Source: Ideonella sp. MAG2 (GTDB taxonomy: Bacteria > Pseudomonadota > Gammaproteobacteria > Burkholderiales > Burkholderiaceae_C). From it: a stretch of 64,000 bases of DNA. The notes beneath the pieces are model-generated. The model did not search any database and was not told the origin of the DNA. It worked only from the letters and a program-made list of their open reading frames with translations. The number at the start of each line of letters is the position of its first letter. Within the stretch, counting starts at the first letter, position 1. Shown here piece after piece: positions 5,931 to 38,303 of the stretch. The DNA is taken from contig PTEU01000002.1 in NCBI GenBank assembly GCA_004359425.1, positions 560,736-624,735 on the forward strand, read 5' to 3'. A program made the position numbers and the translations under genes.

Positions 5931-6476
5931 TCAGGCTTTGTGGGAGCTCGCCCGCCCACGCTTGGGGGCCAGCATGGTGCGGCGGCACTCTGGGGAGCCG
6001 CAGCGGCATTCATAGCGCTTTTTCAAGGCCGGGGTGTAGCGTTCCTGAATGACCAGGCCGTAGTCATAGAACAACTCCTCGCCCGGGCCAATGGACCGCA
6101 GGGCGTGGATGAAGACGCGGCCGTCTTCGGTTTCTTCGGCGTAGCAGTTGGGCTCGCAGGCGTGGTTGATCCAGCGCGAGGCATTGCCGCCATACAGCGC
6201 GTCAATCACCTCCCCACCTTCGATCTGGAAGTAGAAGGTGTGGTCGGGCTGCAGGGGGTCGTGGGGGTGGCGGTCTAGCGCCTCTTGCCAGGAGATGCGC
6301 TGGCCGGTGTATTCGATCAGCAGCTCGCCCGGCTCCAGCGTGGTCAGAGCAAAAACGCCCCGGCCGTGCACGCCGCTGCGGCGCACCTGAATGCGCCGTC
6401 CGCCCCGGGCCCGTTCAGGCTGGGAGGTGTTGGCGACAGGGGCCTTGGGCGGCTTGGCTTGCGTGGGCGATTTCAT
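5931..6476 (-). CDS. SET-domain protein-lysine methyltransferase
   Basis: An approximately 181-aa protein that is almost entirely a SET domain with post-SET cysteines. Visible motifs are SGVHGRGVFA at the domain start, the SAM/pseudoknot motif RWINHACEPNC, the active-site region ELFYDYGL, and the post-SET ECRCGSPECRR. It would transfer methyl from S-adenosylmethionine to protein lysine; bacterial targets are generally unknown, so the substrate is open. The ATG at 6476 is preferred, with in-frame ATGs at 6485, 6494 and 6518 as alternatives. It heads the operon with birA and the SPOR gene, and is divergent from topB. Confidence 0.9.
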   Translation of the reverse strand: MKSPTQAKPPKAPVANTSQPERARGGRRIQVRRSGVHGRGVFALTTLEPGELLIEYTGQRISWQEALDRHPHDPLQPDHTFYFQIEGGEVIDALYGGNASRWINHACEPNCYAEETEDGRVFIHALRSIGPGEELFYDYGLVIQERYTPALKKRYECRCGSPECRRTMLAPKRGRASSHKA

Positions 6477-25455: not shown

Positions 25456-26331
25456 TCAGAGGTCCAAAGGCCACGGCCTCTGTGCTGGCCTGATCTGCTC
25501 CCACAGCGCGGCCATGCGCAGCACGCCCAGGTCATCATGGCGATGGCCGATGAACTGCACACCCACGGGCAGGCCCGACTCGCTGTAGTCCGCATTCACA
25601 CTGATGGCGGGCTGCTCGCTCATATTCCACGGTAGCGTGTACGCAATGTGCTCAAACGGGCGCTCGGGGTCGTTCAAGGGGCTGGCCCACTCGGCGGCAA
25701 ACGCCACCTCGGGGCTGACGGGGGCGAGCACAAAGTCCAGGCCCTGGCAGGCGGCCACCGCACTATCGCGCAGCACACCGATCTGGCTGAAGCCGGTGAA
25801 GACCTCGGCCGCACTGAGCCGTTCGCCACGGCGAATCCATTGGCTGATGTAGGGCAGCACCAAAGCTTGGCGCTCAGGCGGGAGCGCTGCAAAGTCCAGC
25901 CAGGAGCGCATGCGCCAAAAGTTATCCAGGCCGTCGACCATGGCGCGGGTCATGAAGGCGGGCAGCTCCACGACCGTGGCACCGGCGGATTGCAGGCGGG
26001 CAGCCGCGTCCAGCACCACCTGGCGCACGCTGCTTGACAGCGGTGTCCCCCAGCCTGGGTCCAGCCACAGGCCAATGCGCAATGCCCGAGGGTCCAAGCC
26101 ATCAAGCTGCAACCAAGGAATGTCTTGCGGCGGCAGGCTCATGGTGTCGCGCCAGTCTGGCCGCGACAACACGCTCATGGCCAGGGCCGCATCGGCCACC
26201 GTGCGCGTCATCGGGCCTGCCACACGTCCCGCATAGGGGGGCTGAATAGGGATGCGCCCCAGGCTGGGCTTGAAGCCCACGATGCCGCACCAACTGGCGG
26301 GCAGGCGGATGGAGCCGCCAATGTCAATTCT
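25456..26331 (-). pseudogene. Amidase (amidase signature family), 5'-truncated remnant
   Basis: The frame encodes the C-terminal ~290 residues of an amidase-signature hydrolase. It begins inside the catalytic core at DIGGSIRLPASWCG, which holds the cis-Ser/nucleophile Ser region, then continues GFKPSLGRIP, GPMTRTVADAALAM and a normal C-terminus. The N-terminal portion, including the catalytic Lys, is absent (complete enzymes are about 450-500 aa). Upstream the DNA is fused to the 3'-truncated peptide-binding-protein gene at about 26324-26340. There is no plausible start with a ribosome site, apart from a GTG at 26280 inside the core. It is interpreted as a deletion remnant or an assembly join. 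Confidence 0.8.
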
Positions 26332-27337
26332 GGGCCGTCAGGTCCACATAGCCTGCGTCGGTGGGGGCAAAGTGGCTCCCAATGGGCACGGCCTTGCCAT
26401 CGAGCACACCATCAATAAAGGCCTTGCGGTCAATGGCATGGGCCAGGGCACGGCGTACACGCACATCGTCAAAGGGCTTGCGCTTGTTGTTGATGGCCAG
26501 AATGCCCTTGCCCGCCGTGGCCCCCATGGTGACGGTAAAGCGCGCATCTGACTGAAACTGCTTCAGGCTCTGGTTGGCCAAGCCGCGGGGGAAACCGTCC
26601 ACATCGCCGGCCAAAAGCGCGGCCACCTGGGCGGCTGGGTCGCTGATGAAGCGGAAGGTAACTTTCTTGAGCTTGACGCTGGCGGCAGCGCGATAGCCGT
26701 CAAAGCGGCTGAGCACCACAGCGTTGCCCTTCTTCCAGTCCTCAAACTTGAAAGGGCCGGTGCCGATGGGGCGTTGGGCCGTGCTGGCCGCGCTTTTGGC
26801 GTCCAGAATCACCGCCGGGTTCTCCCCCAGGCGGAATAGAAAATTTCCGTCTGGGTTGTTGAGGGTGAAGATGACGGTGTAAGCGTCGGGCGTGCTGACC
26901 GAGGCGATGTTGTCGAACAGGGCTTTTTTGGCCTTGTTGGTCGACCCCTCCGCCTTGGCACGTTCTACGCTGAACTTGACATCGGCGGCGTCAAAGGCTT
27001 CGCCGTCATGAAACTTGACGCCTTTGCGCAAGGTGAAGGTGTAGGACTTGCCGTCGGGCTCCATGCTCCAGCGCTCGGCCAGCAAGGGCGTGATCTGCCC
27101 ATCCACATTGATTTTGGTCAGCCCCTCCAACACATTGAGGTGCACGATCTCGCCAATGGCGGCGGCCGGCGCGATGGTGGGGTCCAGGCCTGGAGGTTCC
27201 AGCACCATGCCGACCACCACCGTGGCCTTCTGGCTTTGCGCCATGGTGCGCAGTGGCCACAGAGCCACCGTGCTGGCGACCAAGGCAGAGGCCAGCAAAG
27301 CGCGGCGATGGCGATACAGGGGCAGAAAGGGGCGCAT
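26324..27337 (-). CDS. Peptide-type ABC transporter substrate-binding protein, 3'-truncated
   Basis: A 337-aa solute-binding protein of the SBP_bac_5 (DppA/OppA) family. It has an N-terminal signal segment ending near TMAQ, then typical elements: LEPPGLDPTIAPAAA, LLAERWSMEPDGKSYTFTLR, KFHDGEAFDAADVKFS, and RRALAHAIDRKAFIDGVL. Family members are about 500 aa and continue well past GYVDLT; here the frame meets an unrelated stop three codons later, at the join to the amidase remnant. The missing third would complete the ligand-binding cleft, so this copy is probably non-functional. ABC permease and ATPase genes of the same class lie 5.5-10 kb away on the same strand. Confidence 0.85.
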   Translation of the reverse strand: MRPFLPLYRHRRALLASALVASTVALWPLRTMAQSQKATVVVGMVLEPPGLDPTIAPAAAIGEIVHLNVLEGLTKINVDGQITPLLAERWSMEPDGKSYTFTLRKGVKFHDGEAFDAADVKFSVERAKAEGSTNKAKKALFDNIASVSTPDAYTVIFTLNNPDGNFLFRLGENPAVILDAKSAASTAQRPIGTGPFKFEDWKKGNAVVLSRFDGYRAAASVKLKKVTFRFISDPAAQVAALLAGDVDGFPRGLANQSLKQFQSDARFTVTMGATAGKGILAINNKRKPFDDVRVRRALAHAIDRKAFIDGVLDGKAVPIGSHFAPTDAGYVDLTAQN

Positions 27338-27724
27338 GGACAGAATCCTTTCGAAGGAGGACGGGCCAATGGTGCCTCAAAAACGGGCGATTCGACGCCA
27401 CCGAAGGCCCTGGCTTACCCGGGCATTCGTCTGCCGCCAGGGCAGGCAGGCCCTGCCAGATGGGCAGCAGAGGCCTCGGATGCCCTCAAAACCCTAGCTG
27501 CCTCGTCGGGCAAGCGGCCCGCTCGCTGCCAACTTTGCCACGCGCCTGAGGGTGTTGCCGCACTCAAAACATCAGCGGGGGCTGTTTCTAAACGCAACAA
27601 AGCGTTAAATTCGAGGGTCTACTGCGCAGATCCTCGGCTTGCTGTGTCCAAGCCATGCGTCCGGAACCCTTGCGGGCTCTGTGCGCCTAGATGTCGCCAT
27701 CTGCAAGGGCTGGAGTTGTACGCC
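27338..27724. other. Divergent intergenic region between SBP and oxidase genes
   Basis: This is 387 bp without a convincing gene. A ribosome-site-like AAGGAGG reads outward on the plus strand at about 27354-27360 but has no start codon in place. A short inverted repeat (AACGC at 27591-27595 with GCGTT at 27602-27606) lies in the A/T-richer part, about 120 bp before the oxidase start, and could be an operator. Promoters for both flanking genes are expected here, but none is clear. Confidence 0.5.
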
Positions 27725-29377
27725 ATGAATACAAAAATGAATCGCTGGTCACATGGGTCCTTGTTGGCTGCCACCTGTGTCGCCTTGCTCAGCCTGACCG
27801 CCTGCGGTGGCGGTGGCGGCAGCGAGGCGGAAGAACCCGCCGCCGCCCTTGATCCGGACCTGCGCCGTGCGCCGACCGCAGCCCGCTCTCCCCTGAATGC
27901 CCAAACGGCGGCCACCGCGCGTTGGTCCGCGCCCACCAGCCTGAGCTTGGTACCCTCGTCGGGGTCAGTGCTGCCCAATGGCAAGGTCTTGCTGTGGTCG
28001 GCTGACACCCCTATGGGTTTTGGCGGCAGCGGCCGCACCTACACCACCCTGTTCGACCCGGCGACCAACAGCGCCAGCGACCGCCTGGTGCAGGAAACCG
28101 GCCATGCCATGTTTTGCACCGGTACCACGCTGCTGCCAGATGGCCGCCTGCTGGTCAACGGGGGCAGCGACTCCGCAGCCACCAGCATTTACGACCTGAG
28201 TTCCAACTCTTGGACACGGGGCGGGAATATGAACATTCCCCGTGGCTACCAGTCCAACACGCTGCTGCAAGACGGCTCGGTGTTGACGTTTGGCGGCTCC
28301 TGGAGCGGTGGCACCGGCAACAAGCATGGCGAAGTCTGGTCTTCTGGGTCGGGCTGGCGCAATCTCAGCGGCCTGCGCATCGACTCCACCCTTACGCCCG
28401 ACGGCCCCTGGGGCGGGGACTCTCACTACTGGCTGGTGCCTGCGGGCAACGGCAAGGTGCTGCACCCTGGCCCCGGTGTGCGCATGCATTGGCTCGACAC
28501 ATCGGGCTCCGGTGCCATCACCTATATTGGCGACCGCACCGACCCCAGTGTGCAAAATGGAGCGGACGGCCCCAGTGTGGCAGGTAGCTTCGTCATGTAT
28601 GACGTGGGCCGAGGCCTCAAGACGGGCGGCGTGCATAAGCTAGGGCAGGCCGCCCGCAGCAACGCCTATGTGATCGAATTCGACAAGGGCGTGTCGGTGC
28701 GCAAGGTGGCTGATATGGCCTTCCAGCGCGTCTACCAAAACAGTGTGGTGCTGCCCGACGGCCGCGTGGTGCTGATTGGCGGCCAAACCTTTGAGGCGCA
28801 GTTCACCGACCGCGACTCGGTGATGTCGGCCGAAATTTGGGACCCGACTACCGAAACCTTCACCACCCTGCCCGCTGCGATGTCGGTGCCCCGCAACTAC
28901 CACAGCATCGCCATGCTGATGCCAGACGGCCGGGTGATGGCCGCCGGCGGTGGTTTGTGTGGCGGCTGCTCGGCCAACCATGCCGACTTGCAGATGCTCT
29001 CGCCGCCCTATTTGTTCAATGCCGACGGCAGCCCTGCGCAACGCCCGGTGATCAACACCGCGCCCAGCACCGTGCGCTATGGCTCGGTGGTGAATGTGGC
29101 CATGAGTGGCCCCGTCACCGACTTTGCCTTGGTGCGCATGTCCTCCACCACCCACACCATCAACAACGACCAGCGGCGCATCCCGCTGCTCTCAGCGGAC
29201 ATTGGCAACAATATTTACAGCCTGCAGATCCCCAGCAATCCAGGGTGGTTGCTGCCGGGGGTTTGGATGCTGTTTGCCATGGACGCCAAGGGCGTGCCCT
29301 CAGTGGCCAAATTGGTCTCCATCAGTGCCGACGGCCTGCCGCTCATCCAGCCCGTGCCTTCGCACCACCACCTTTGA
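27725..29377 (+). CDS. Galactose/glyoxal oxidase-like radical-copper oxidase lipoprotein (AA5-type)
   Basis: A 550-aa lipoprotein: signal peptide, lipobox LTAC, Gly5 linker, a seven-bladed Kelch propeller, and a C-terminal DUF1929 domain. By analogy with fungal galactose oxidase, all active-site residues are present: Cys131 (MFCTGT; Cys228 there), Tyr175 (RGYQSN; Tyr272), Trp193 (GGSWSGG; Trp290), Tyr392-His393 (RNYHSIAML; Tyr495/His496) and His477 (TTHTINNDQRR; His581). This predicts a Cu ion with a Cys-Tyr cofactor, oxidising an alcohol or aldehyde and reducing O2 to H2O2. The gene ends at TGA 29375-29377, apparently after a frameshift, because the next frame continues without a gap into PA14 and cytochrome domains. 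Confidence 0.88.
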   Translation: MNTKMNRWSHGSLLAATCVALLSLTACGGGGGSEAEEPAAALDPDLRRAPTAARSPLNAQTAATARWSAPTSLSLVPSSGSVLPNGKVLLWSADTPMGFGGSGRTYTTLFDPATNSASDRLVQETGHAMFCTGTTLLPDGRLLVNGGSDSAATSIYDLSSNSWTRGGNMNIPRGYQSNTLLQDGSVLTFGGSWSGGTGNKHGEVWSSGSGWRNLSGLRIDSTLTPDGPWGGDSHYWLVPAGNGKVLHPGPGVRMHWLDTSGSGAITYIGDRTDPSVQNGADGPSVAGSFVMYDVGRGLKTGGVHKLGQAARSNAYVIEFDKGVSVRKVADMAFQRVYQNSVVLPDGRVVLIGGQTFEAQFTDRDSVMSAEIWDPTTETFTTLPAAMSVPRNYHSIAMLMPDGRVMAAGGGLCGGCSANHADLQMLSPPYLFNADGSPAQRPVINTAPSTVRYGSVVNVAMSGPVTDFALVRMSSTTHTINNDQRRIPLLSADIGNNIYSLQIPSNPGWLLPGVWMLFAMDAKGVPSVAKLVSISADGLPLIQPVPSHHHL

Positions 29378-32300
29378 ATGGGTGGTGACGGGCGCCTCCA
29401 GCCAGGGCTCGGGCCTGATCGGGCGTTACTTTACGGGCCAGAGTTTGGGCGGCACCGCCGTCTATCTGCGCACCGAAAACGTCGATTTCACCTGGAATAC
29501 CTCGCCCGCCCCCGGCGTCTCGGTGAATGATTTCTCTGTGGAATGGTCGGGCCAGGTGCAGGCCCCCAGCAGTGGCACCTACCAATTCCAGACAGTGTCT
29601 GACGATGGTGTGCGCTTGGCGCTGAACAATGCCACGCTGATTGACAACTGGGCCAACCACGGCACCACCACGGACACCAGTGGGCCCGTGCAGTTGCTGG
29701 CGGGTCAGCGGGTGCCGATCTCACTGAAGTATTTCAACGGCAACGCCACCGGCACCGTCCGCTTGCTCTGGAAGAAGCCTGGGGCCGGTGCGTTTGAAGT
29801 TGTGCCCGCCTCAGTGCTGTTTGGCGACCTCTCTATCGCCACCGGCCTGCGGGCGACCTACTTCAACAACACCACCTTGTCGGGTGTTCCCGTCTTGGAA
29901 CGTGTGGAGTCACCCAACTTCGACTGGGGCCAGGGTGCGCCCGACCCCAAGGTCCAGGCCGATGGCTTCTCGGTGCGTTGGCAAGGCAGTCTGGTGGTGA
30001 GCACCAGTGGTGACTACGAGTTCCGCACCGAAGCCGATGACGGCGTTCGCATGTGGGGCGGCGGCATTGTTGATCCGGTGATCAACCGCTGGAGCGCATC
30101 TGGCGCTGTGGTGGCTGATACGGTGGGCCCGGTGGCGCTCACCGCCGGCCAGACTGTGCCCATTACCTTGGAATACTTTGACCAAGACAAGGCCGCCGTG
30201 GTGCGCCTGCTCTGGAAGACGCCTGGCTCCAGCGCCTTTGTGCCGGTGCCGGCCAGCAATTTGTTGTCCACGCTGGCGAATGCAGCCCCTGTGATGACCG
30301 CCTTGACCGATAGGCAAGGCTTGCGTGGTGTGGCCGACAGCGTCACCGTCAGTGCCCGTGACCCCGAAGGAGCAGCCCTGAGCTACAGCGCCAGTGGCCT
30401 GCCCTCGGGCATGAGCATAGATGCAGCGACCGGCGTGATCAGCGGCACACCCACGGTCAGCGGTGTTTATGCGGTGTTGGTGACCGCCACCGACTCCGAT
30501 CGCATGTCGGGCCAAGCAGGCTTTACCTGGACCATCACCGAACCTCTGGCGGAAGTGGACCCGATTGAGGCTCCGCCCATCTTGGCCGGTCAAACCGCCA
30601 GCTATCGCCCGGTGGTCAAGAGCGCGGGCAGTGTGGAGTACATCTGGCAATTTGGCGACGGCAGCGCGGACACCGCCGCCTCGACCTCTCCCAATGCTGA
30701 CCATGTGTACACCACGCCGGGCGTGTACTTGGTCAACCTCATCATCCGCAGCACGGTAGACGGCAGCCGCAAAACGGTGAGCTTCCGCCAGGCAGTAACC
30801 ACTCCGGTGACGGCCAAAGCGCCTCTGGCCAGCACCAACATCTTGGTCGAACCGCGCACCGATGTGGCACCGCGCTTGTGGGTGCTCTCACCCGACAACA
30901 GCACCGTCACCGTGTTTGAGCTGCCCAGCATGAACCGCTTGGGTGAGGTCTCCACCGGCGGCAGTGGCCCCACCACCTTGGGCTTGGTGCCCAACGGCCC
31001 TGTGGTGGTGGTCAATCAGACCAGTGGCAACTTGGTGGTGATCGACCAAAACAGCGGTAGCGTCTCGGCCTCTTTGCCCACTCCGCGTGGATCACGGCCT
31101 TACGGCATCGTGTTCTCACCCTTGGGTGACTTCGCCTACGTCAGCTATGAAGCCACCGGCCAGGTGGTGAAGTACGACCTGACGGGTGCTGTGGTGGGCA
31201 CGCTCACCGTGGGCGGCAACCCCCGTCATCTGTCGATCTCGGCGGACGGCTCGCGCCTCTTTGTCTCGCGCTTCACCACGGCCCCGCAACCGGGTGAAGG
31301 CACGGCCTCCGTGCGCGGCGACATCAATGGTGTGAAGACCGGTGGCGAGGTGATCGAGGTCAACACGGCTGCCTTCACCACTCAGCGCCGCATCGTGCTC
31401 CAGCACAGCGACAGGCTGGACACCACCGTGACCGGCAGCGGCGTGCCCAACTACTTGGCTGCGGCTGTGATCTCGCCCGACGGCAAGTCGGCCTGGGTGC
31501 CCTCCAAGCAGGACAACATCGGCCGTGGCATGTTGCGCAGCCGCCAGCAATTGGACTTCCAGAATTCAGTGCGCGCCATCAGCTCACGCATTGACCTGAC
31601 GGCCAACCAAGAGGACTACGCGGCGCGTGTCGACCATGACAACGCAGGCTTGGCCACGGCCGCAGCCTTCCACCCCACTGGGGCCTACCTGTTCGTGGCA
31701 CTGGAGACCAGCCGCGAAGTGGCGGTGGTGGACCCGGTCGGCCGCCGCGAGCTGTTCCGCATCAATGTGGGACGGGCTCCGCAAGGTCTGACGGTGTCGG
31801 CTGATGGCCGCACGCTGTACGTCCAAAACTTCATGGACCGCAGCGTCAGCGTGGTGGACTTGAGCCCCCTGGTGCGCAATGGCTTGCTGGAAAGCAAACT
31901 CATCACCACCGCCTCCACGGTGGTGACCGAAGCCTTGGCTCCGGCCGTGCTGCTGGGCAAACAGTTGTTCTATGACGCCAAAGACACCCGGCTGGCCCGC
32001 GACGGCTACCTGAGCTGTGCCGTCTGCCATGCCGAAGGCGCGGATGACGGTCGCGTGTGGGACTTCACCGGCTTTGGTGAAGGCCTGCGCAACACCATCG
32101 ACTTGCGAGGCAAGGCAGGAGGCCAGGGCTTCCAGCACTGGAGCGGCAACTTTGACGAAATCCAGGACTTCGAAGGCCAGATCCGCAACTTTGCCCAAGG
32201 CTCGGGCTTGATGGGCTACAACGAGTTTTATGGCGGCACCCGCAGCACGCCCTTGGGCGACCCCAAGGCCGGTTTGAGTGCAGATTTGGATGCTTTGGCC

Positions 32301-32771
32301 AGCTATGTGAAGTCCTTGAGCACGCCGGTGGACAGCCCTTGGCGTCAGGCCGATGGCACCCTCACGGCCACGGCGCAGTTGGGCCGCCAAACCTACCTCA
32401 ACGCCCAGTGCGCAAGCTGCCACGGCACGCCGGGCTTCCCTGGTAGTGCCACGCCCTTGCGTGATGTCGGCACCTTGAAAGCCAGCAGCGGCACCCGCTC
32501 AGGCGGCACGCTGACCGGCATTGATGTGCCCTCGCTGGCCGGCGTTTGGGCCACTGCGCCCTACCTGCATGACGGCTCCGCTGCCACACTGGAAGACGCG
32601 GTACGCGCCCACACCAAGAACACCATTCAGCCGCCTGCGGCGGAGATGGCGCAACTGGTGGAATATCTGCGTCAGATCAACGCCGACAGCGGCACCCAGT
32701 CCCAAGCGGCTGCACGGGCCAAAGCTGCGGCCCAAGGCACCGGTGGTTTGAAGAAAGGCCGTGGGGGCTGA
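29364..32771 (+). CDS. PA14-PA14-Ig-PKD-beta-propeller-dihaem cytochrome polypeptide (probable frameshifted continuation of the oxidase)
   Basis: An open frame of about 1135 codons, one frame over from the oxidase. Domains in order: PA14 (GLIGRYFTGQ..., about 15-150), a second PA14 (GLRATYFNNT..., about 155-300), a putative cadherin/Ig domain (DPEGAALSYSASGLPSGM), a PKD domain (WQFGDGSADTAA), a YVTN-type beta-propeller (about 490-860), and a C-terminal cytochrome-c-peroxidase/MauG-like domain with two haem motifs, CAVCH (32016-32030) and CASCH (32409-32423), plus WATAPYLHDGSAATLEDA. It has no signal peptide or convincing start (GTG 29382 or 29385 only), although haem attachment requires export. 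It is therefore most likely the C-terminal part of one ~1690-aa exported protein, broken at about 29360. Confidence 0.75.
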   Translation, partial: TTTFEWVVTGASSQGSGLIGRYFTGQSLGGTAVYLRTENVDFTWNTSPAPGVSVNDFSVEWSGQVQAPSSGTYQFQTVSDDGVRLALNNATLIDNWANHGTTTDTSGPVQLLAGQRVPISLKYFNGNATGTVRLLWKKPGAGAFEVVPASVLFGDLSIATGLRATYFNNTTLSGVPVLERVESPNFDWGQGAPDPKVQADGFSVRWQGSLVVSTSGDYEFRTEADDGVRMWGGGIVDPVINRWSASGAVVADTVGPVALTAGQTVPITLEYFDQDKAAVVRLLWKTPGSSAFVPVPASNLLSTLANAAPVMTALTDRQGLRGVADSVTVSARDPEGAALSYSASGLPSGMSIDAATGVISGTPTVSGVYAVLVTATDSDRMSGQAGFTWTITEPLAEVDPIEAPPILAGQTASYRPVVKSAGSVEYIWQFGDGSADTAASTSPNADHVYTTPGVYLVNLIIRSTVDGSRKTVSFRQAVTTPVTAKAPLASTNILVEPRTDVAPRLWVLSPDNSTVTVFELPSMNRLGEVSTGGSGPTTLGLVPNGPVVVVNQTSGNLVVIDQNSGSVSASLPTPRGSRPYGIVFSPLGDFAYVSYEATGQVVKYDLTGAVVGTLTVGGNPRHLSISADGSRLFVSRFTTAPQPGEGTASVRGDINGVKTGGEVIEVNTAAFTTQRRIVLQHSDRLDTTVTGSGVPNYLAAAVISPDGKSAWVPSKQDNIGRGMLRSRQQLDFQNSVRAISSRIDLTANQEDYAARVDHDNAGLATAAAFHPTGAYLFVALETSREVAVVDPVGRRELFRINVGRAPQGLTVSADGRTLYVQNFMDRSVSVVDLSPLVRNGLLESKLITTASTVVTEALAPAVLLGKQLFYDAKDTRLARDGYLSCAVCHAEGADDGRVWDFTGFGEGLRNTIDLRGKAGGQGFQHWSGNFDEIQDFEGQIRNFAQGSGLMGYNEFYGGTRSTPLGDPKAGLSADLDALASYVKSLSTPVDSPWRQADGTLTATAQLGRQTYLNAQCASCHGTPGFPGSATPLRDVGTLKASSGTRSGGTLTGIDVPSLAGVWATAPYLHDGSAATLEDAVRAHTKNTIQPPAAEMAQLVEYLRQINADSGTQSQAAARAKAAAQGTGGLKKGRGG

Positions 32772-32795
32772 AACTAGACACGGTTGAATTTATCT

Positions 32796-32826
32796 GTGCA
32801 GGCTCCTAGGAGCCTGCACTTTTTTG
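32796..32826 (+). terminator. Rho-independent terminator after the oxidase-cytochrome locus
   Basis: A perfect 24-nt palindrome (GTGCAGGCTCCT with AGGAGCCTGCAC, 32796-32819) is followed by a T run. It lies 25 bp after the cytochrome stop and before the convergent ABC ATPase gene. Confidence 0.88.
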
Positions 32827-32833
32827 AGGGGCT

Positions 32834-33619
32834 TTATGGGGCTCTGGCTGCCGCCAACAGGCTTTGCGTATAGGGGTGTCGGGGCTGGCCTAACACCTCC
32901 TGGCAAGGGCCTTGCTCGACGACCTGCCCGTGTTGCAACACCAGCACGTCATCGCACATCAGCTCGATCACCGCCAGGTCGTGGCTGATGAAGAGATAGG
33001 TCAGGCCGTAGCGGTCTTGCAAGTCCTGCATCAAGTTCAGCACTTGGGCCTGTACCGACACATCCAGCGCGCTAACAGGCTCGTCCGCCACAATCAATTG
33101 AGGTCGGGTGATCAAGGCCCGCGCAATGGCAATGCGCTGGCGCTGCCCCCCCGAGAACTCGTGCGGGTAACGATCAGCATCGGTGGCTGGCAAACCCACA
33201 GCCTCCAGCATCTCGGCCACTCTGGCGGCTTGTTCGCTCTCTGGCGTGGCACCCAAACCCCGCAGGGGTTCGGCAATGCTGGGGCCTATGCGCATGCGCG
33301 GGTCCAGCGAGCCAAATGGGTCTTGAAACACCATCTGAAACCCCTTGCGTGCGCCGCGCAAAGCCTGGGCCGATAGCTGATGCAGGTTTTGGCCTTGAAA
33401 GGACACGCTGCCGCTGTGCGGCACCTCCAAGGCACACACCAGCCGCGCCAGGGTGGATTTGCCCGAGCCGGATTCACCCACCACCCCCAGGTTGCGCCCG
33501 GCCTGCAGCGAGAAGCTGACGCTTTGCAAGGCCTGCACCATGGGCCGCTGCCAGCCAGCGCCACGGGGCAAGGCATAGCGTTGACTCAGAGACTGGACCT
33601 CCAGCAGGGTTGTACTCAT
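32834..33619 (-). CDS. Peptide-type ABC transporter ATPase (DppF/OppF-like)
   Basis: A 261-aa cytoplasmic ATPase of the dipeptide/oligopeptide importer class. It shows Walker A GESGSGKST, Q-loop MVFQDPFGSLDP, signature FSGGQRQRIAIARAL, Walker B LIVADEPVSALD and the switch His in FISHDLAV. The short C-terminal HPYTQSLLAA is typical of DppF/OppF. The ATG at 33619 overlaps the upstream ATPase gene's stop (ATGA), so it is coupled to it. It is the final gene of the five-gene permease-permease-sulfotransferase-ATPase-ATPase operon. Confidence 0.94.
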   Translation of the reverse strand: MSTTLLEVQSLSQRYALPRGAGWQRPMVQALQSVSFSLQAGRNLGVVGESGSGKSTLARLVCALEVPHSGSVSFQGQNLHQLSAQALRGARKGFQMVFQDPFGSLDPRMRIGPSIAEPLRGLGATPESEQAARVAEMLEAVGLPATDADRYPHEFSGGQRQRIAIARALITRPQLIVADEPVSALDVSVQAQVLNLMQDLQDRYGLTYLFISHDLAVIELMCDDVLVLQHGQVVEQGPCQEVLGQPRHPYTQSLLAAARAP

Positions 33620-34593
33620 GAGGACTCCAAGGGCTGCCAACAACGCACTTGGTGAGCGCCCTCATCCAGGCTTGGCGGCTGCTGTGTGCAAGCGGCTTGC
33701 GCCCGGGCACAGCGGGGGGCAAACGCGCAGCCTTGGATCTTGGTGTGGCTGGCGGGCACGCGGCCCGGCAATACCGGCAGGCGCGTGCCGCGCGGCAAAC
33801 CCAGGCGCGGGCGAGCCGCCATCAAGGCCTGGGTGTAAGGGTGGCGAGGGCGGGCGAACACGGATTCGGTCGGGCCGATTTCAACCACCTCGCCCGCATA
33901 CATCACCGCCACCTGCTGCACCCGCTGGGCCATCACCGCCAGGTCATGGCTGATCAGCAACAGGCTCATGCCCTGCGCGGTCACCAAGTCCGTCATCAAG
34001 TCCAGCACCTCACGCTGCACCTGGGCGTCCAATGCGGTGGTGGGCTCGTCGGCCACCAGCAACTCAGGCCCACAGGCCAGGGCCATGGCCAGCACCACCC
34101 GCTGGCGCTGGCCGCCTGAGAGCTGGTGAGGATAGGCCTGTAGGCGTTGTGCCGCCTGAGGCATGCGTACCCGCTCCAACCACTGTAGGGCACAGTCCAG
34201 GGCCTCACGCCGCTGGAGACCCTGGTGCAAGCGCAGGCCCTCGGCAATTTGCTGACCCACGGTGTGCAAGGGGTTGAGCGCCGTCATGGGCTCTTGGAAC
34301 ACCATGGCCACTCGGGCCCCACGCCAGCGGCACCAAGCGGCTTCGTCCAGTGTGTGCAGGGCCTGCTCGCCCCACCACATCTCGCCGCCGATCTGCGCTC
34401 CTTCCGGCAGCAGGCCCATCAAGGCCAAGGCCGTCATGGACTTGCCGCAACCCGACTCGCCCACCAGCCCCAGCGTCTGGCCCGCCCCCAACTGAAACGA
34501 CACATCGCGCAGCACCTGCGCCCCGCCGGGCAGGCGCACTGCCAGCTGCTGAACCCGCAAGCCACCGGGGGATGAGGCGGCGGTGCCGGTCAT
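33616..34593 (-). CDS. Peptide-type ABC transporter ATPase (DppD/OppD-like)
   Basis: A 325-aa ATPase partner of the downstream one. It has Walker A GESGCGKSM, Q-loop MVFQEPMTALNP, signature LSGGQRQRVVLAMAL, Walker B LLVADEPTTALD and switch ISHDLAVMA. The C-terminal oligopeptide/dipeptide domain carries the cysteine cluster C-AFAPRCARAQAAC that binds an Fe-S cluster in some homologues. It starts at ATG 34593, overlapping the sulfotransferase stop codon, and is coupled to the next ATPase by ATGA. It powers uptake through the two permeases at the head of the operon. Confidence 0.94.
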   Translation of the reverse strand: MTGTAASSPGGLRVQQLAVRLPGGAQVLRDVSFQLGAGQTLGLVGESGCGKSMTALALMGLLPEGAQIGGEMWWGEQALHTLDEAAWCRWRGARVAMVFQEPMTALNPLHTVGQQIAEGLRLHQGLQRREALDCALQWLERVRMPQAAQRLQAYPHQLSGGQRQRVVLAMALACGPELLVADEPTTALDAQVQREVLDLMTDLVTAQGMSLLLISHDLAVMAQRVQQVAVMYAGEVVEIGPTESVFARPRHPYTQALMAARPRLGLPRGTRLPVLPGRVPASHTKIQGCAFAPRCARAQAACTQQPPSLDEGAHQVRCWQPLESS

Positions 34594-35357
34594 GGCGTGG
34601 GTGAGGCCATCAACGGCGAGGCCTGCTCAAGCGGCACGCTGGGCAAGGCCGGGCGGAACCAATCCACCGTGGCTAACAATTCTTGATGCAGTGCGTCCAT
34701 GGGCGGTGCCGGGCAGTCTTCGCTGTAGCCCAGCGCCGCCAGTTGCGGGGCCAGCAACCGGCTCAAACGCCAACGCTCAAAAGGGCTGAGGCCCGAGCGG
34801 CCCAAGCGCTGAGCGACCGCCGGGTCCGCCTCACCCAGCGCACCGCGCTTCCAGGTCTCAAACGGCATCAAGAGTCGGCCTTGGCCCAAGCGGCGGCCAC
34901 GCCGGGGCGCACGGCGCAGGAATCGACCGATGCGCTCCAACTCAGCGTCTGCATCGCGGCTCAAGTCTTCCAGACGCACTTGCAGCAAGGCGTTGGGGTG
35001 GGCTTGGGCAAACTGCCAGATGTGCTGCTGGGTCCAGGCCCAGTCACGGGCGTAGTCGTCAATGGGCCGCCAGCCTTCGCCCCAGCCCCGGCCGGGTTGG
35101 GCCAGCTCCCGGCGCGAGGCCAAGGCGGTGAACGGCGAACGCACCATGGCAATAAAGCGCGCCGCCGGGAACAGCTTCAAGATGCGCTCTAAGCCTTGGG
35201 CCTGACGGCGGCTCAACCGCTCACCCTCAGGCAGATGCTCGGGCAAGCACTCAAAAAAATGGGTTTCTGGCACGGTGGCCAAGGCAAAGTGTTCGGCCAC
35301 CAAGCGTTGGCACAGGGTGGTGCCCGAGCGCGCAAAACCAACAATAAAGGTGGGCAT
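34590..35357 (-). CDS. Sulfotransferase-family protein embedded in the ABC operon
   Basis: A 255-aa protein with the PAPS-binding 5'-phosphosulfate loop GFARSGTTL at residues 7-15 and the 3'-phosphate-binding pattern ARFIAMVRSPFTAL near residues 66-79. Such enzymes transfer sulfate from PAPS to a hydroxyl or amine acceptor. The two motifs are only about 50 residues apart, where family members usually have roughly 100 or more, so the middle of the fold may be deleted. The C-terminal half is Arg/Leu-rich and ordinary. It starts 9 bp after the permease gene, with a clear TAGGAG site, and overlaps the ATPase gene, so it is a true operon member. Confidence 0.75.
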   Translation of the reverse strand: MPTFIVGFARSGTTLCQRLVAEHFALATVPETHFFECLPEHLPEGERLSRRQAQGLERILKLFPAARFIAMVRSPFTALASRRELAQPGRGWGEGWRPIDDYARDWAWTQQHIWQFAQAHPNALLQVRLEDLSRDADAELERIGRFLRRAPRRGRRLGQGRLLMPFETWKRGALGEADPAVAQRLGRSGLSPFERWRLSRLLAPQLAALGYSEDCPAPPMDALHQELLATVDWFRPALPSVPLEQASPLMASPTP

Positions 35358-35366
35358 CAGGGGCTC

Positions 35367-36206
35367 CTAGTGCCGATGGCGAAGTTGGGGGTCGAGCACA
35401 TCGCGCAGCCCATCACCCAAGAGGTTGAGCCCCAGCACCGTGATGGCAATGGCCAGGCCCGGCCACAGGGCCAGCAATGGGGCATTGAAGAGCTGCAATT
35501 GCGCGTCGGCCAGCATGCGGCCCCAACTGGCTTGTGGCGCTTGCGTGCCCAGGCCCAAAAAGGCCAGAGCGGCCTCGGCCAGAATGGCCAGCGCACACTG
35601 GATGGTGGCCTGCACGATCAATGGGGCAGCGATATTGGGCAACACATGGCTCGCGGTGATGGCGCTGCGGCCGAGGCCAGAGAGCCGGGCGGCGAGGATG
35701 TAATCCCGCGCCCAAACATTGAGAGCAGCAGCCCGCGTGACCCGTGCAAACACCGGGATGTTGAAGACCCCAATGGCGATGATGCTGGTACCGAGGCCCG
35801 GGCCTTGGGCCGCCGCCAGCAAAATGGCCGTGAGTAAGGCCGGAAAGGCAAATCCAAAGTCCACGGCCCGCATCAGCAGCTCATCCACCCAGCCCCGGCG
35901 GGCAGCGGCCAACAAGCCCAGGCCGAGGCCGATGCACAGACCCCAGCCCACGGCCAAGAGCCCCACCATCAAAGCGCTCTGTGCCCCGACCATGAGCTGT
36001 GCGGCAATGTCGCGCCCCAGGCTGTCCGTGCCCAGCCAATGCTGGCTGCTGGGGCCTTGCAGCTTGTGGGGAATGTTCAGCTCGCCCGGCGGATAGGGTT
36101 GCCACAGCAGCGAGAGCAGGGCCACGCCCAGCACCCCTGCCACCAAGCAAGCGCCCAGCATGAAGCTGCGGTGACGCCAGGCGCGCTGCCAAAACCCTGG
36201 GTTCAT
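35367..36206 (-). CDS. Peptide-type ABC transporter permease (DppC/OppC-like)
   Basis: A 279-aa inner-membrane permease with about six helices. Family features are the periplasmic GTDSLGRDIAAQLMVGAQSAL after the first helix and the EAA loop EAALAFLGLGTQAPQASWG near the C-terminus. The ATG at 36206 overlaps the stop of the upstream permease (ATGA), which indicates translational coupling and heterodimer assembly. With DppB-like and two ATPases it would form a complete importer, but the likely binding-protein gene at 26.3-27.3 kb is broken. Confidence 0.93.
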   Translation of the reverse strand: MNPGFWQRAWRHRSFMLGACLVAGVLGVALLSLLWQPYPPGELNIPHKLQGPSSQHWLGTDSLGRDIAAQLMVGAQSALMVGLLAVGWGLCIGLGLGLLAAARRGWVDELLMRAVDFGFAFPALLTAILLAAAQGPGLGTSIIAIGVFNIPVFARVTRAAALNVWARDYILAARLSGLGRSAITASHVLPNIAAPLIVQATIQCALAILAEAALAFLGLGTQAPQASWGRMLADAQLQLFNAPLLALWPGLAIAITVLGLNLLGDGLRDVLDPQLRHRH

Positions 36207-37165
36207 GATGCCGCCCGCTTGAGCCGGGGGTCTAACCACAGGTAGAGCAACTCGACCAGGAAGTTGAGCACCACCACCAAGGCCACCAAGGCCATCACCA
36301 CATCCCGCACCAGAACCAGGTCACGGTTGCTGATGGCCTGAAACACCAGCCGGCCTACACCGGGCAGCACAAACACGTTCTCTACCACGATGGTGCCGGT
36401 CAGCAGGTTGGCCATTTGCAGGCCCATGACCGTGAACACCGGCACCATGGCATTGCGCAGCACATGCCGCCACATCACCGCGCGTCGGCTCAGGCCTTTG
36501 GCGCGGGCGGTGCGCACAAAATCTTCGCGCATCACCTCCAGCACGGCGGAGCGCGTCACCCGGGCCAAGATGGCCGCCTGCACGCAAGCCAGCGCCAGGG
36601 CCGGCAGCAACAGCGCGGTGAATCCCGCCCGCAGGCCACCGCCGTCGTCTTCTGTCCAGCCCGGAAAGCCCCCCGCGCCGACCCATTGCAACTTCACCGC
36701 AAACAGCAAGATCAGCAATATGGCCAACCAAAAATTGGGCAGGGCCAGGCCCACTTGGCCTGCCGTCATCACCGCCATATCACCCAGGCGGCCATGCCGG
36801 GCGGCAGCAAACACCCCTAGGCTCAAGGCCACCACGGTGGTCAACGCCATGGCCATCAGGGCCAGCGGCCCGGTGACCTGCATGCGCTCGGCCAGCAGAG
36901 TCAGCGTGGGTTCATCGTAAGACAGGCTCAGGCCCGTTTCGCCGCAAAGCAGGCCGGTGACCCAGGCGAGGTAGCGCGTCAGGGCCGGTTGATCCAGGCC
37001 CAGCTTTTGCTCCAACGCGGCCACCGCCTCGGGCGTCGCGGACTCTCCCAGCATGACCTCGGCTGCATTGCCGGGCAACCACTCCAGCGCCGCAAAGACC
37101 AAGGCCGAGGCCACCAGCAGGGTCAGGCACAGCGAGAGCAAACGGCGAAGCAGCAGAGCACCCAT
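36203..37165 (-). CDS. Peptide-type ABC transporter permease (DppB/OppB-like)
   Basis: A 320-aa inner-membrane permease and first gene of the ABC operon. The N-terminus MGALLLRRLLSLCLTLLVAS is the usual first helix. It is followed by PGNAAEVMLG and EQKLGLDQPALTRYLAWV, and the EAA loop appears as DFVRTARAKGLSRRAVMWRH near the C-terminus. The ATG at 37165 is chosen over an upstream extension to 37306 that would read through the divergent promoter region and add non-family sequence. It is divergent from the shortened aldehyde dehydrogenase gene. Confidence 0.93.
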   Translation of the reverse strand: MGALLLRRLLSLCLTLLVASALVFAALEWLPGNAAEVMLGESATPEAVAALEQKLGLDQPALTRYLAWVTGLLCGETGLSLSYDEPTLTLLAERMQVTGPLALMAMALTTVVALSLGVFAAARHGRLGDMAVMTAGQVGLALPNFWLAILLILLFAVKLQWVGAGGFPGWTEDDGGGLRAGFTALLLPALALACVQAAILARVTRSAVLEVMREDFVRTARAKGLSRRAVMWRHVLRNAMVPVFTVMGLQMANLLTGTIVVENVFVLPGVGRLVFQAISNRDLVLVRDVVMALVALVVVLNFLVELLYLWLDPRLKRAAS

Positions 37166-37247
37166 GGGCAGGGGTTGGCGGGGATGGCATGTGGAACAAG
37201 GCTGTCTATGATGCCCGCAATTCTTTGTGGCTTTGCGGGAGTACGCC

Positions 37248-38303
37248 ATGTCAGCCAACTTCACCGCCTTCACGCTGCGCGAACCGCATGGCGTGACGGG
37301 CCACATCGTGCCCTGGAACTACCCCATGCAAATCATTGGCCGCTCAGTCGGGGCGGCCCTGGCCATGGGCAATGCCTGTGTGCTTAAACCGGCCGAGCAA
37401 GCCTGCCTCAGCGCCTTGGCCTTGGCCCACCTGGCGCAGGCCGTGGGGCTGCCGCCAGGGGCATTGAATGTGGTGACGGGCTTGGGTGAAGAGGCGGGCG
37501 CGGCACTGGCCACTCATCCTGGTGTGGCTCATCTCTCCTTTACCGGCTCCGCGGCAGTAGGCCGCGCAGTGCAACGCGCGGCGGCCGAGCACACCATACC
37601 CGTCACCCTGGAGCTGGGGGGCAAAAGCCCGCAGATCGTGTTTGCTGACGCCGACCTGGATGCCGCCCTGCCCGTGCTGCTGCAAGCGGGCCTGCAAAAC
37701 GCGGGGCAAACCTGCTCGGCCTCCTCACGCATCTTGGTGCAAGCCACTGTGTTCGACGAGGTGGCTCGGCGCATGGCCGAGGGCTATCGCGCGATGCGGG
37801 TCGGCCCGGCACTCAGCAGCCCCCAAGTCGGGCCGCTGGTGTCGGCCGAGCAACAAGCCGCTGTCTTGCGCTGCCTGGCTCAAGCCGGGCCTGAGGCGGT
37901 GCTGGCGCAAAGCACCTTGCCCGCCGACCTGCCCGCCAAGGGCTACTACGTGGCCCCCACGTTGCTGGCGGGCTTGCCGCCCGAGCATGTGCTGGCGCAA
38001 GAAGAGATTTTTGGCCCGGTGCAGCTCTTGCTGCCCTTTGAGGACGAGGCTGAGGCACTGCGCATTGCGAATGGCACGCCCTATGGCCTGGTGGCAGGTC
38101 TTTGGACCCGCGACATCAGCCGGGCCATGCGCCTGATGCACCGCCTGCATTGCGGCCAGGTGTTCATCAACAACTATGGCGCGGGCGGCGGCGTGGAGCT
38201 GCCCTTTGGGGGCGTCAAAGCCTCGGGCCATGGCCGAGAAAAGGGTTTTGAAGCCCTGTATGGTTTCTCTCGCACCAAGACCGTCGCGGTGCGCCACGGT
38301 TGA
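37248..38303 (+). CDS. Aldehyde dehydrogenase (NAD(P)-dependent), N-terminally shortened
   Basis: A 351-aa aldehyde dehydrogenase lacking roughly the first 110-120 residues of the usual ~480-aa enzyme. The retained part begins at TLREPHGVTGHIVPWNYP and includes the oxyanion Asn, FTGSAAVGRAVQ, the general base Glu in LELGGKSPQ, the nucleophile Cys in NAGQTCSASS, and EEIFGPVQ. The ATG at 37248 has a GGGAG site 6 nt upstream, so it may still be translated. The first few codons (SANFTA) do not match the family. Loss of the N-terminal arm of the cofactor domain would probably disable it. It is divergent from the ABC operon. Confidence 0.85.
   Translation: MSANFTAFTLREPHGVTGHIVPWNYPMQIIGRSVGAALAMGNACVLKPAEQACLSALALAHLAQAVGLPPGALNVVTGLGEEAGAALATHPGVAHLSFTGSAAVGRAVQRAAAEHTIPVTLELGGKSPQIVFADADLDAALPVLLQAGLQNAGQTCSASSRILVQATVFDEVARRMAEGYRAMRVGPALSSPQVGPLVSAEQQAAVLRCLAQAGPEAVLAQSTLPADLPAKGYYVAPTLLAGLPPEHVLAQEEIFGPVQLLLPFEDEAEALRIANGTPYGLVAGLWTRDISRAMRLMHRLHCGQVFINNYGAGGGVELPFGGVKASGHGREKGFEALYGFSRTKTVAVRHG

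Follow-up and report, generated by a model that had tools for sequence, protein, structure and literature searches.

A stretch of 64,000 nucleotides from Ideonella sp. MAG2 (contig PTEU01000002.1, positions 560,736 to 624,735), here called the window, raises the question of whether a copper-radical oxidase and a di-haem protein that follow each other in different reading frames are two genes or the parts of one. A reading made from the letters alone (the sequence-only reading) had proposed a single polypeptide. Comparison with relatives showed that the architecture, an AA5 oxidase joined in one chain to a propeller and a di-haem domain, is real and widely shared, and that the window holds a broken copy of it.

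The first frame (27725–29377) encodes a protein of 550 amino acids (aa) with the N-terminus MNTKMNRWSHGSLLAATCVALLSLTACGGG, which yielded Pfam matches to GO-like_E_set (76.8 bits, cut-off 25) and Kelch. The second frame is open over 29106–32771, and its open reading frame (ORF), P0002, features PA14 (two stretches), He_PIG, PKD and CCP_MauG (43.2 bits, cut-off 25.6) matches as well as YVTN repeats (TIGR02276), all above cut-off. This bears out the series of two PA14 domains, Ig, PKD, YVTN propeller and peroxidase-like domain with two CxxCH sites that had been proposed one frame over from the oxidase. P0002 contains just four cysteines, every one within a CxxCH motif. In the genome from which the window was taken (4.39 Mb, 8 contigs, 91.14% complete; G000) this copy is the only strong one, and four other matches are short and weak.

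A contig scan found 472 stretches encoding a relative, of which the best 80 represent 79 distinct loci. This set was picked by similarity to the second part of the window and is biased towards the architecture in question. The cassette of propeller and di-haem domain was found in all 79 loci. At 75 of them the AA5 domain lies in the same ORF, which is closed by stop codons at both ends in 61 cases. The remaining four loci are L065, which is split by one in-frame stop, and L090, L102 and L104, which begin at a contig edge. The loci belong to the phyla Pseudomonadota (54), Verrucomicrobiota (23), Planctomycetota (1) and Myxococcota (1). Judged from their sequences, the relatives encode one large protein that is predicted to be secreted and is an apparent lipoprotein in many Pseudomonadota; a rough pattern detected a lipobox in 27 of 69 N-termini, and more were seen by eye, L035 included. 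The predicted order of modules is an AA5 domain, then Ig, PA14, PKD or other domains in varying combination, the YVTN propeller and the di-haem domain of the CcP/MauG-like type. For the part from oxidase to cassette in 33 members, Pfam gave the GO-like E-set, PKD, Kelch_6 and CCP_MauG in each of the 33, along with He_PIG (23), F5/8 type C (7) and AbfB (6); the listing covers 25 of 43 families and does not include PA14. By phmmer the place of PA14 varies, as it precedes the cassette, follows it, does both or does neither, and PA14 is thus an optional accessory.

The orthologue in Ideonella paludis (L035; L006 of genome G012 is one and the same gene) is a single ORF of 1,745 aa, which starts from the corresponding ATG and includes two He_PIG stretches. 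At position 29364 the window has 1 bp where L035 has 195 bp, and this difference of 194 bp shifts the frame. The 121-aa piece of L035 that spans the 195 bp matches He_PIG at 52.8 bits, and most of the first He_PIG Ig-like domain of L035 is absent from the window. The gene is under purifying selection. The ratios of non-synonymous to synonymous substitution (dN/dS) between the window and I. paludis are 0.105 for the oxidase, 0.124 for the middle part, 0.074 for the propeller and 0.060 for the haem part. Values of 0.06–0.12 on both sides of the break indicate that the second half was constrained over most of the period since the two lineages diverged. By this comparison the frame change is not ancestral, 29364 is not a gene boundary, and the loss of 194 bp is either a recent deletion or a mis-join of the assembly. 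Along a 400-kb stretch with 253,016 aligned bases, G000 shows 11 abrupt losses of at least 60 bp, against 5 in I. paludis. Four of the 11 fall within window positions 26325–37252; apart from the break itself, three (1,024, 192 and 426 bp) lie in the 11 kb around it. Five single Ns occur in the 400 kb, one of them as the base immediately before the window. The pattern of losses and Ns favours a mis-join, without proving it. Attachment of c-type haem takes place outside the cytoplasm, and the haem half as assembled has no in-frame signal peptide, so that it would be idle.

If the order seen in the window were natural, the oxidase would end at 29377 and be followed by an independent cytochrome protein. 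The sequence as assembled reads this way, and L065 is likewise split, by its in-frame stop. However, the second part has neither a signal peptide nor a sensible start, both sides of the break are constrained by dN/dS, L035 contradicts a division, and the 75 fused relatives rule out two separate genes, which we regard as almost certainly wrong. An oxidase always ending near 29377 beside a cytochrome protein with its own signal peptide is a pattern not seen among the 79 loci. It is very improbable as well that a programmed +1 frameshift yields the full protein from the window gene. The stop is read as CTT TGA, frameshifting by +1 at CTT-TGA is prfB-like, and such a shift would enter the PA14 frame. 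Yet the nearest relative is in frame here without a shift, the CTT-TGA site lies at the deletion junction, and by eye there is no Shine-Dalgarno-like stretch just upstream; this candidate was rejected, as the relatives need no frameshift. The proposal of one polypeptide is supported for the family, with 75 of the 79 loci fused, and is not supported for this assembly, in which the haem half lacks both a signal peptide and a start.

The oxidase of the window aligns with 9g8h at 460 bits and with the Fusarium galactose oxidase 1gof at 356 bits. As had been claimed for an AA5 oxidase lipoprotein with the full galactose-oxidase active-site set, all six residues (C131, Y175, W193, Y392, H393 and H477) pair with active-site residues of 1gof and 9g8h; in galactose oxidase these are C228, Y272, W290, Y495, H496 and H581. 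Conservation was counted in 84 aligned rows including the window, with duplicates and truncated copies among them. The position of C131 holds Cys in 73 rows, a gap in 10 and Ala in one (L100), Y175 is Tyr in 75 rows with a gap in 9, Y392 and H393 are kept in 80 with a gap in 4, and H477 is kept in all 84. The copper and cofactor residues are hence the same in every row that is not gapped at the position, with the Ala of L100 as the sole exception. The Trp of galactose oxidase (Trp193) was found in 34 of the 84 rows, the rest having another residue or a gap. By alignment, the window oxidase has all that the AA5 site would need, namely the Cys-Tyr cofactor, the axial Tyr and the two His ligands. 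It shares its domain and full copper-radical residue set with the galactose oxidases of CAZy AA5_2 (1gof of Fusarium; 9g8h and 9g43 of Pseudoarthrobacter), from which it differs in the fusion to a haem cassette and in having Gly in place of Arg330. Arg330 of galactose oxidase binds galactose. This position is Gly230 in the window, Gly in L035 and Arg in 1gof and 9g8h, and it is Arg in one of 15 fused rows compared, where the alignment is unsure in the most distant rows. Gln406 offers no fair criterion, since there is a gap in the window and Asp in 9g8h. Judged on one residue, galactose itself is an unlikely substrate.

In the cassette, the two haem motifs are present in 94 of 94 and 95 of 95 rows (the window is counted twice, as itself and as L001). 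A motif of the family's own, around HW-x-x-NFDE-x-QDFE, lies downstream of the first haem motif. W925 was found in 94 of 95 rows and matches, by spacing only, the inter-haem Trp in the available part of PMC12758564. The propeller and the di-haem part, in which the window was aligned with 75 of the 79 loci, model as one unit with a predicted local distance difference test (pLDDT) of 90.6 and a predicted template-modelling score (pTM) of 0.92. The top Foldseek matches of this model are 1l0q and, second, the beta subunit of hydrazine synthase. A profile of the di-haem part (window and 25 relatives) searched against the PDB found hydrazine synthase gamma (2.4e-23), then CcP 3o5c (9.2e-22). The earlier label of a cytochrome-c-peroxidase-like domain is supported by the CCP_MauG match, and is better replaced by propeller and di-haem cassette of the CcP/MauG/hydrazine-synthase-gamma kind. 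Membership in four NCBIfam equivalogs was rejected, as the window scored below the cut-offs of NF052342 (hydrazine synthase; 55 against 1250 bits), TIGR03791 (MauG; 39.3 against 443.85), TIGR04039 (MbnH; 42.3 against 362.85) and NF052501 (GlxA; 139.8 against 800). At L039:1576-9279, one frame of 2,568 aa contains the cassette twice. I. paludis has a second, more distant copy at G012:C11:948221-950365; an AA5 E-set directly precedes it, and its cassette match is interrupted by one in-frame TAG.

Of the 199 genomes screened as relatives, 25 have AA5 E-set domains. Among 398 genomes sampled evenly from the phylum, 3 have the cassette (E-value of 1e-60 or better) and 10 the AA5 E-set, own genome included in both, which indicates that the oxidase-cassette system is rare. 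Within this sample, G268 has cassette and AA5 in one frame, and G559 has two cassettes and no AA5. The label 'fused' was set before the oxidase tree was calculated, classes A–D were named once the tree was known, and the unfused rows come from the window's own order only. On the oxidase tree the fused rows require four changes. A single clade of fused rows was rejected with a p-AU of 2e-66 in a test that used 65 of 91 rows, four long unfused rows being among those dropped, and this leaves room for repeated fusion or repeated loss. The cassette tree does not reject the oxidase grouping of A + B against C + D (p-AU 0.151; 62 of 73 AA5-bearing rows). Together the trees suggest that partners may have been swapped between oxidase and cassette lineages.

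Features of the oxidase/di-haem locus, with positions counted from the first letter of the window
Feature	Position	Strand	Basis
AA5 copper-radical oxidase (lipoprotein of 550 aa, TGA stop at 29375-29377)	27725..29377	+	
Lipobox LTAC (Cys27)	27794..27805	+	read from sequence; many relatives have similar N-termini
Galactose-oxidase-like propeller and E-set domain, aa 60-534	27902..29326	+	alignment; E-set aa 440-533 by Pfam
Cys131, predicted thioether cofactor Cys	28115..28117	+	alignment
Tyr175, predicted radical Tyr	28247..28249	+	alignment
Trp193, predicted stacking Trp	28301..28303	+	alignment
Tyr392-His393, predicted Cu ligands	28898..28903	+	alignment
His477, predicted Cu ligand	29153..29155	+	alignment
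Junction left by the missing 194 bp (positions 6059-6253 in I. paludis L035)	29363..29365	.	comparison with L035
Continuation in the shifted frame, from PA14 to the di-haem domain; without own start or signal peptide	29367..32771	+	
Two PA14 domains, limits approximate	29472..30266	+	Pfam
He_PIG Ig-like domain	30303..30539	+	Pfam
PKD domain	30585..30782	+	Pfam
YVTN beta-propeller resembling hydrazine synthase beta, limits approximate	30807..31886	+	TIGR02276, structure matches
Di-haem CcP/MauG/hydrazine-synthase-gamma-like domain	31887..32711	+	Pfam, PDB searches, model
First haem motif CAVCH, C884-H888 of P0002	32016..32030	+	
Second haem motif CASCH, C1015-H1019 of P0002	32409..32423	+	

Around the locus, window positions 25456–27337 hold a substrate-binding-protein-like ORF (337 aa) and an amidase-like ORF (274 aa), both short and named by eye. 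Upstream of its oxidase gene, I. paludis has ORFs of 516 and 486 aa in the same order, with 1,024 bp extra at the place of window 26325–26333. The 192-bp loss relative to I. paludis at 35189–35191 lies inside a sulfotransferase-like ORF (name by eye) and keeps the frame; the 426-bp loss is located at 37252–37258.

A homologue of the copper chaperone SCO1/SenC is found within 0.9 kb in 35 of the 79 loci, 29 of them detected with a first query and 6 with a second, on the opposite strand in L048. By class these are 25 of 30 loci in A, 5 of 10 in C, 4 of 9 in D and none of 21 in B, plus L075, which is one of nine loci left unclassified because their oxidase part is incomplete. Pfam confirms SCO1/SenC in two representatives, and CxxxC is present in 33 of 33 and 16 of 16 of the ORFs found. 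A small CxxCH protein adjoins the fused gene in 19 of the 79 loci, all of class A; L037, L069 and L076 are discounted, since their match ends inside the fused gene. Without a position filter, 23 of 26 ORFs of this small protein have CxxCH. A homologue of a protein with MbnP and MbnH-like parts adjoins the fused gene in 12 of the 79 loci, all of class B (12 of 21), on the opposite strand in L058; in the window the same query matches the di-haem ORF itself only. The representative of L112 matches PF20243 at 123.2 bits and TIGR04039 at 255 bits, below the cut-off of 362.85. At L112:2573-4357, the one locus in which the domains were checked, MbnP and MbnH-like di-haem domains share one frame of 595 aa. 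Eleven of the 12 loci belong to Verrucomicrobiota.

The architecture, the conserved sites, the gene neighbours in relatives and the purifying selection are observed, whereas substrate, peroxide handling, activation and electron path in the following scheme are inferred. The oxidase would act on a primary alcohol or aldehyde group of an external substrate and reduce O2 to H2O2. With this H2O2, the tethered di-haem unit would become a strong one-electron oxidant, which could re-form the Cu(II)-tyrosyl radical each time the oxidase falls into its inactive one-electron-reduced state, and the unit may also clear excess peroxide. Where they adjoin the fused gene, the SCO1/SenC homologue would load copper, and electrons would be supplied or drained by the small CxxCH protein as a putative cytochrome c. 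That the window holds an interrupted copy of such a gene, with the haem unit using the H2O2 of the oxidase for radical re-formation and peroxide clearance, is to our judgement an evenly balanced proposition. A wider version is possible and is offered more tentatively. It describes a self-activating copper-radical oxidase, an exported chain whose own H2O2 would feed the di-haem unit and keep the radical charged, with copper from a co-encoded SCO1, and in it several copper-oxidase lineages of bacteria would share this hydrazine-synthase-beta-gamma-like cassette as their physiological activator.

Several results weigh against this scheme. Measured in 41 relatives, the oxidase and the cassette are 93 to 551 aa apart. 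The compact member L110, whose model has AA5 structures as its best structure matches, reaches a pLDDT of 83.2 with a pTM of just 0.62. This spread and this pTM indicate no fixed docking, and the linker lengths point to an oxidase and a cassette that would be tethered flexibly rather than docked. The combination of an H2O2-producing site with a peroxidase-like haem module in one protein is plausible, but neither the varying linker nor the pTM shows the coupling that the sequence-only reading gave as an inference. The cassette also occurs without AA5 in L017 and L018, and in L019 and L146, both cut at one end, so that it has uses which need no copper oxidase. A search with the single sequence places CcP 3o5c (3.8e-12) ahead of hydrazine synthase gamma (1.3e-9). 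The representative small CxxCH protein matches no Pfam or NCBIfam family, and neither the 64 kb of the window nor the L035 stretch contains a homologue of SCO1, of the CxxCH protein or of the MbnP-MbnH-like protein. As a separate observation, the cassettes of L017, L019 and L146 are joined to a different N-terminal part, which contains repeats and no AA5.

The di-haem unit could instead be an electron conduit, passing electrons from the oxidase to the neighbouring putative c-type cytochrome and on to the respiratory chain in a dehydrogenase mode, with O2 and H2O2 in a minor role. The small CxxCH protein beside the fused gene and the two haems within one unit are in keeping with it. AA5 enzymes, however, are known as oxidases that use O2, the spacing varies widely, no fixed contact is predicted, and the lack of a family match for the CxxCH protein speaks against it too; we consider a conduit unlikely. 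A role in maturation, distinctly unlikely in our view, would have the di-haem unit act in the manner of MbnH or MauG and oxidise a protein side chain, such as a Trp in an MbnP-like partner, so that a copper site is built for the oxidase. The MbnP and MbnH-like genes of class B and the SCO1/SenC homologues at other loci fit such a role, but the representative MbnP partner carries a di-haem domain of its own, classes A, C and D of the 79-locus set have no such neighbour, and galactose oxidase forms its Cys-Tyr by self-processing. The many modules of the PKD, Ig and PA14 type would suit a structural or adhesive surface protein with a non-catalytic haem part, which is improbable given that copper and haem residues are kept across four phyla.

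One of the closest known systems is the fungal tandem CRO-AlcOx/Perox pair. In the available part of PMC9770985, a copper-radical oxidase is paired with an activating haem peroxidase, as proposed here, whereas in the fungal pair the oxidase and a class II peroxidase are secreted as distinct proteins and the present chain has a c-type di-haem unit. According to the same part, CorPerox activates CorAlcOx, supported by electron paramagnetic resonance, and copper-radical oxidases need peroxidase for maximum activity in vitro. Glyoxal oxidase was reactivated by horseradish peroxidase and a mediator (PMC10928124, available part). Most likely the protein is a one-chain counterpart of the fungal oxidase-peroxidase pair, whose haem unit would use the peroxide of the oxidase to activate or reactivate the copper radical, or would consume it. 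On the basis of PMC9770985, PMC10928124, PMC12758564, PMC11267884, PMC3543389 and PMC3621798 we propose that peroxide from the oxidase would serve the tethered di-haem unit in keeping the copper radical active and would be removed by it. GlxA of Streptomyces (AA5, NF052501) is likewise a bacterial copper-radical oxidase, to which the window is a partial match, and the word 'cytochrome' does not occur in the available part of PMC3543389, used for the GlxA comparison. Hydrazine synthase beta/gamma (5c2v) and the fused beta-gamma homologues, which are common in environmental bacteria (PMC12758564, available part), have a propeller followed by a di-haem domain, as here. The window differs in lacking an equivalent of the third haem-bound Cys165, as P0002 has no further Cys, and in a Trp that lies, by spacing, near the place of gamma-His144. 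'Galactose oxidase' has no occurrence in PMC12758564. With MauG, MbnH and bacterial CcP the di-haem part shares the CCP_MauG match above cut-off and two CxxCH motifs, CcP 3o5c being its first match in the single-sequence search; from MauG and MbnH it is set apart by scores under the NCBIfam cut-offs and by the family's own motif. No description of an oxidase/di-haem fusion was found in the literature searched, which mostly excluded subscription papers and preprints and does not prove absence. In the available parts of the literature examined, no bacterial activator of copper-radical oxidases is named, only fungal partner peroxidases or added horseradish peroxidase.

The lesion at 29364 is a warning against inferring a gene boundary from this assembly. 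For the family, the findings show that surface oxidases contain a beta-gamma module like that of hydrazine synthase, a result relevant to the origin of the module. Copper-radical oxidases need a one-electron oxidation for activity, and a natural chain of oxidase and di-haem unit, whose gene is often adjoined by that of a copper-chaperone homologue, makes the question of the bacterial activator testable. Such a one-chain unit would also be useful in biocatalysis, where the peroxidase now comes from outside.

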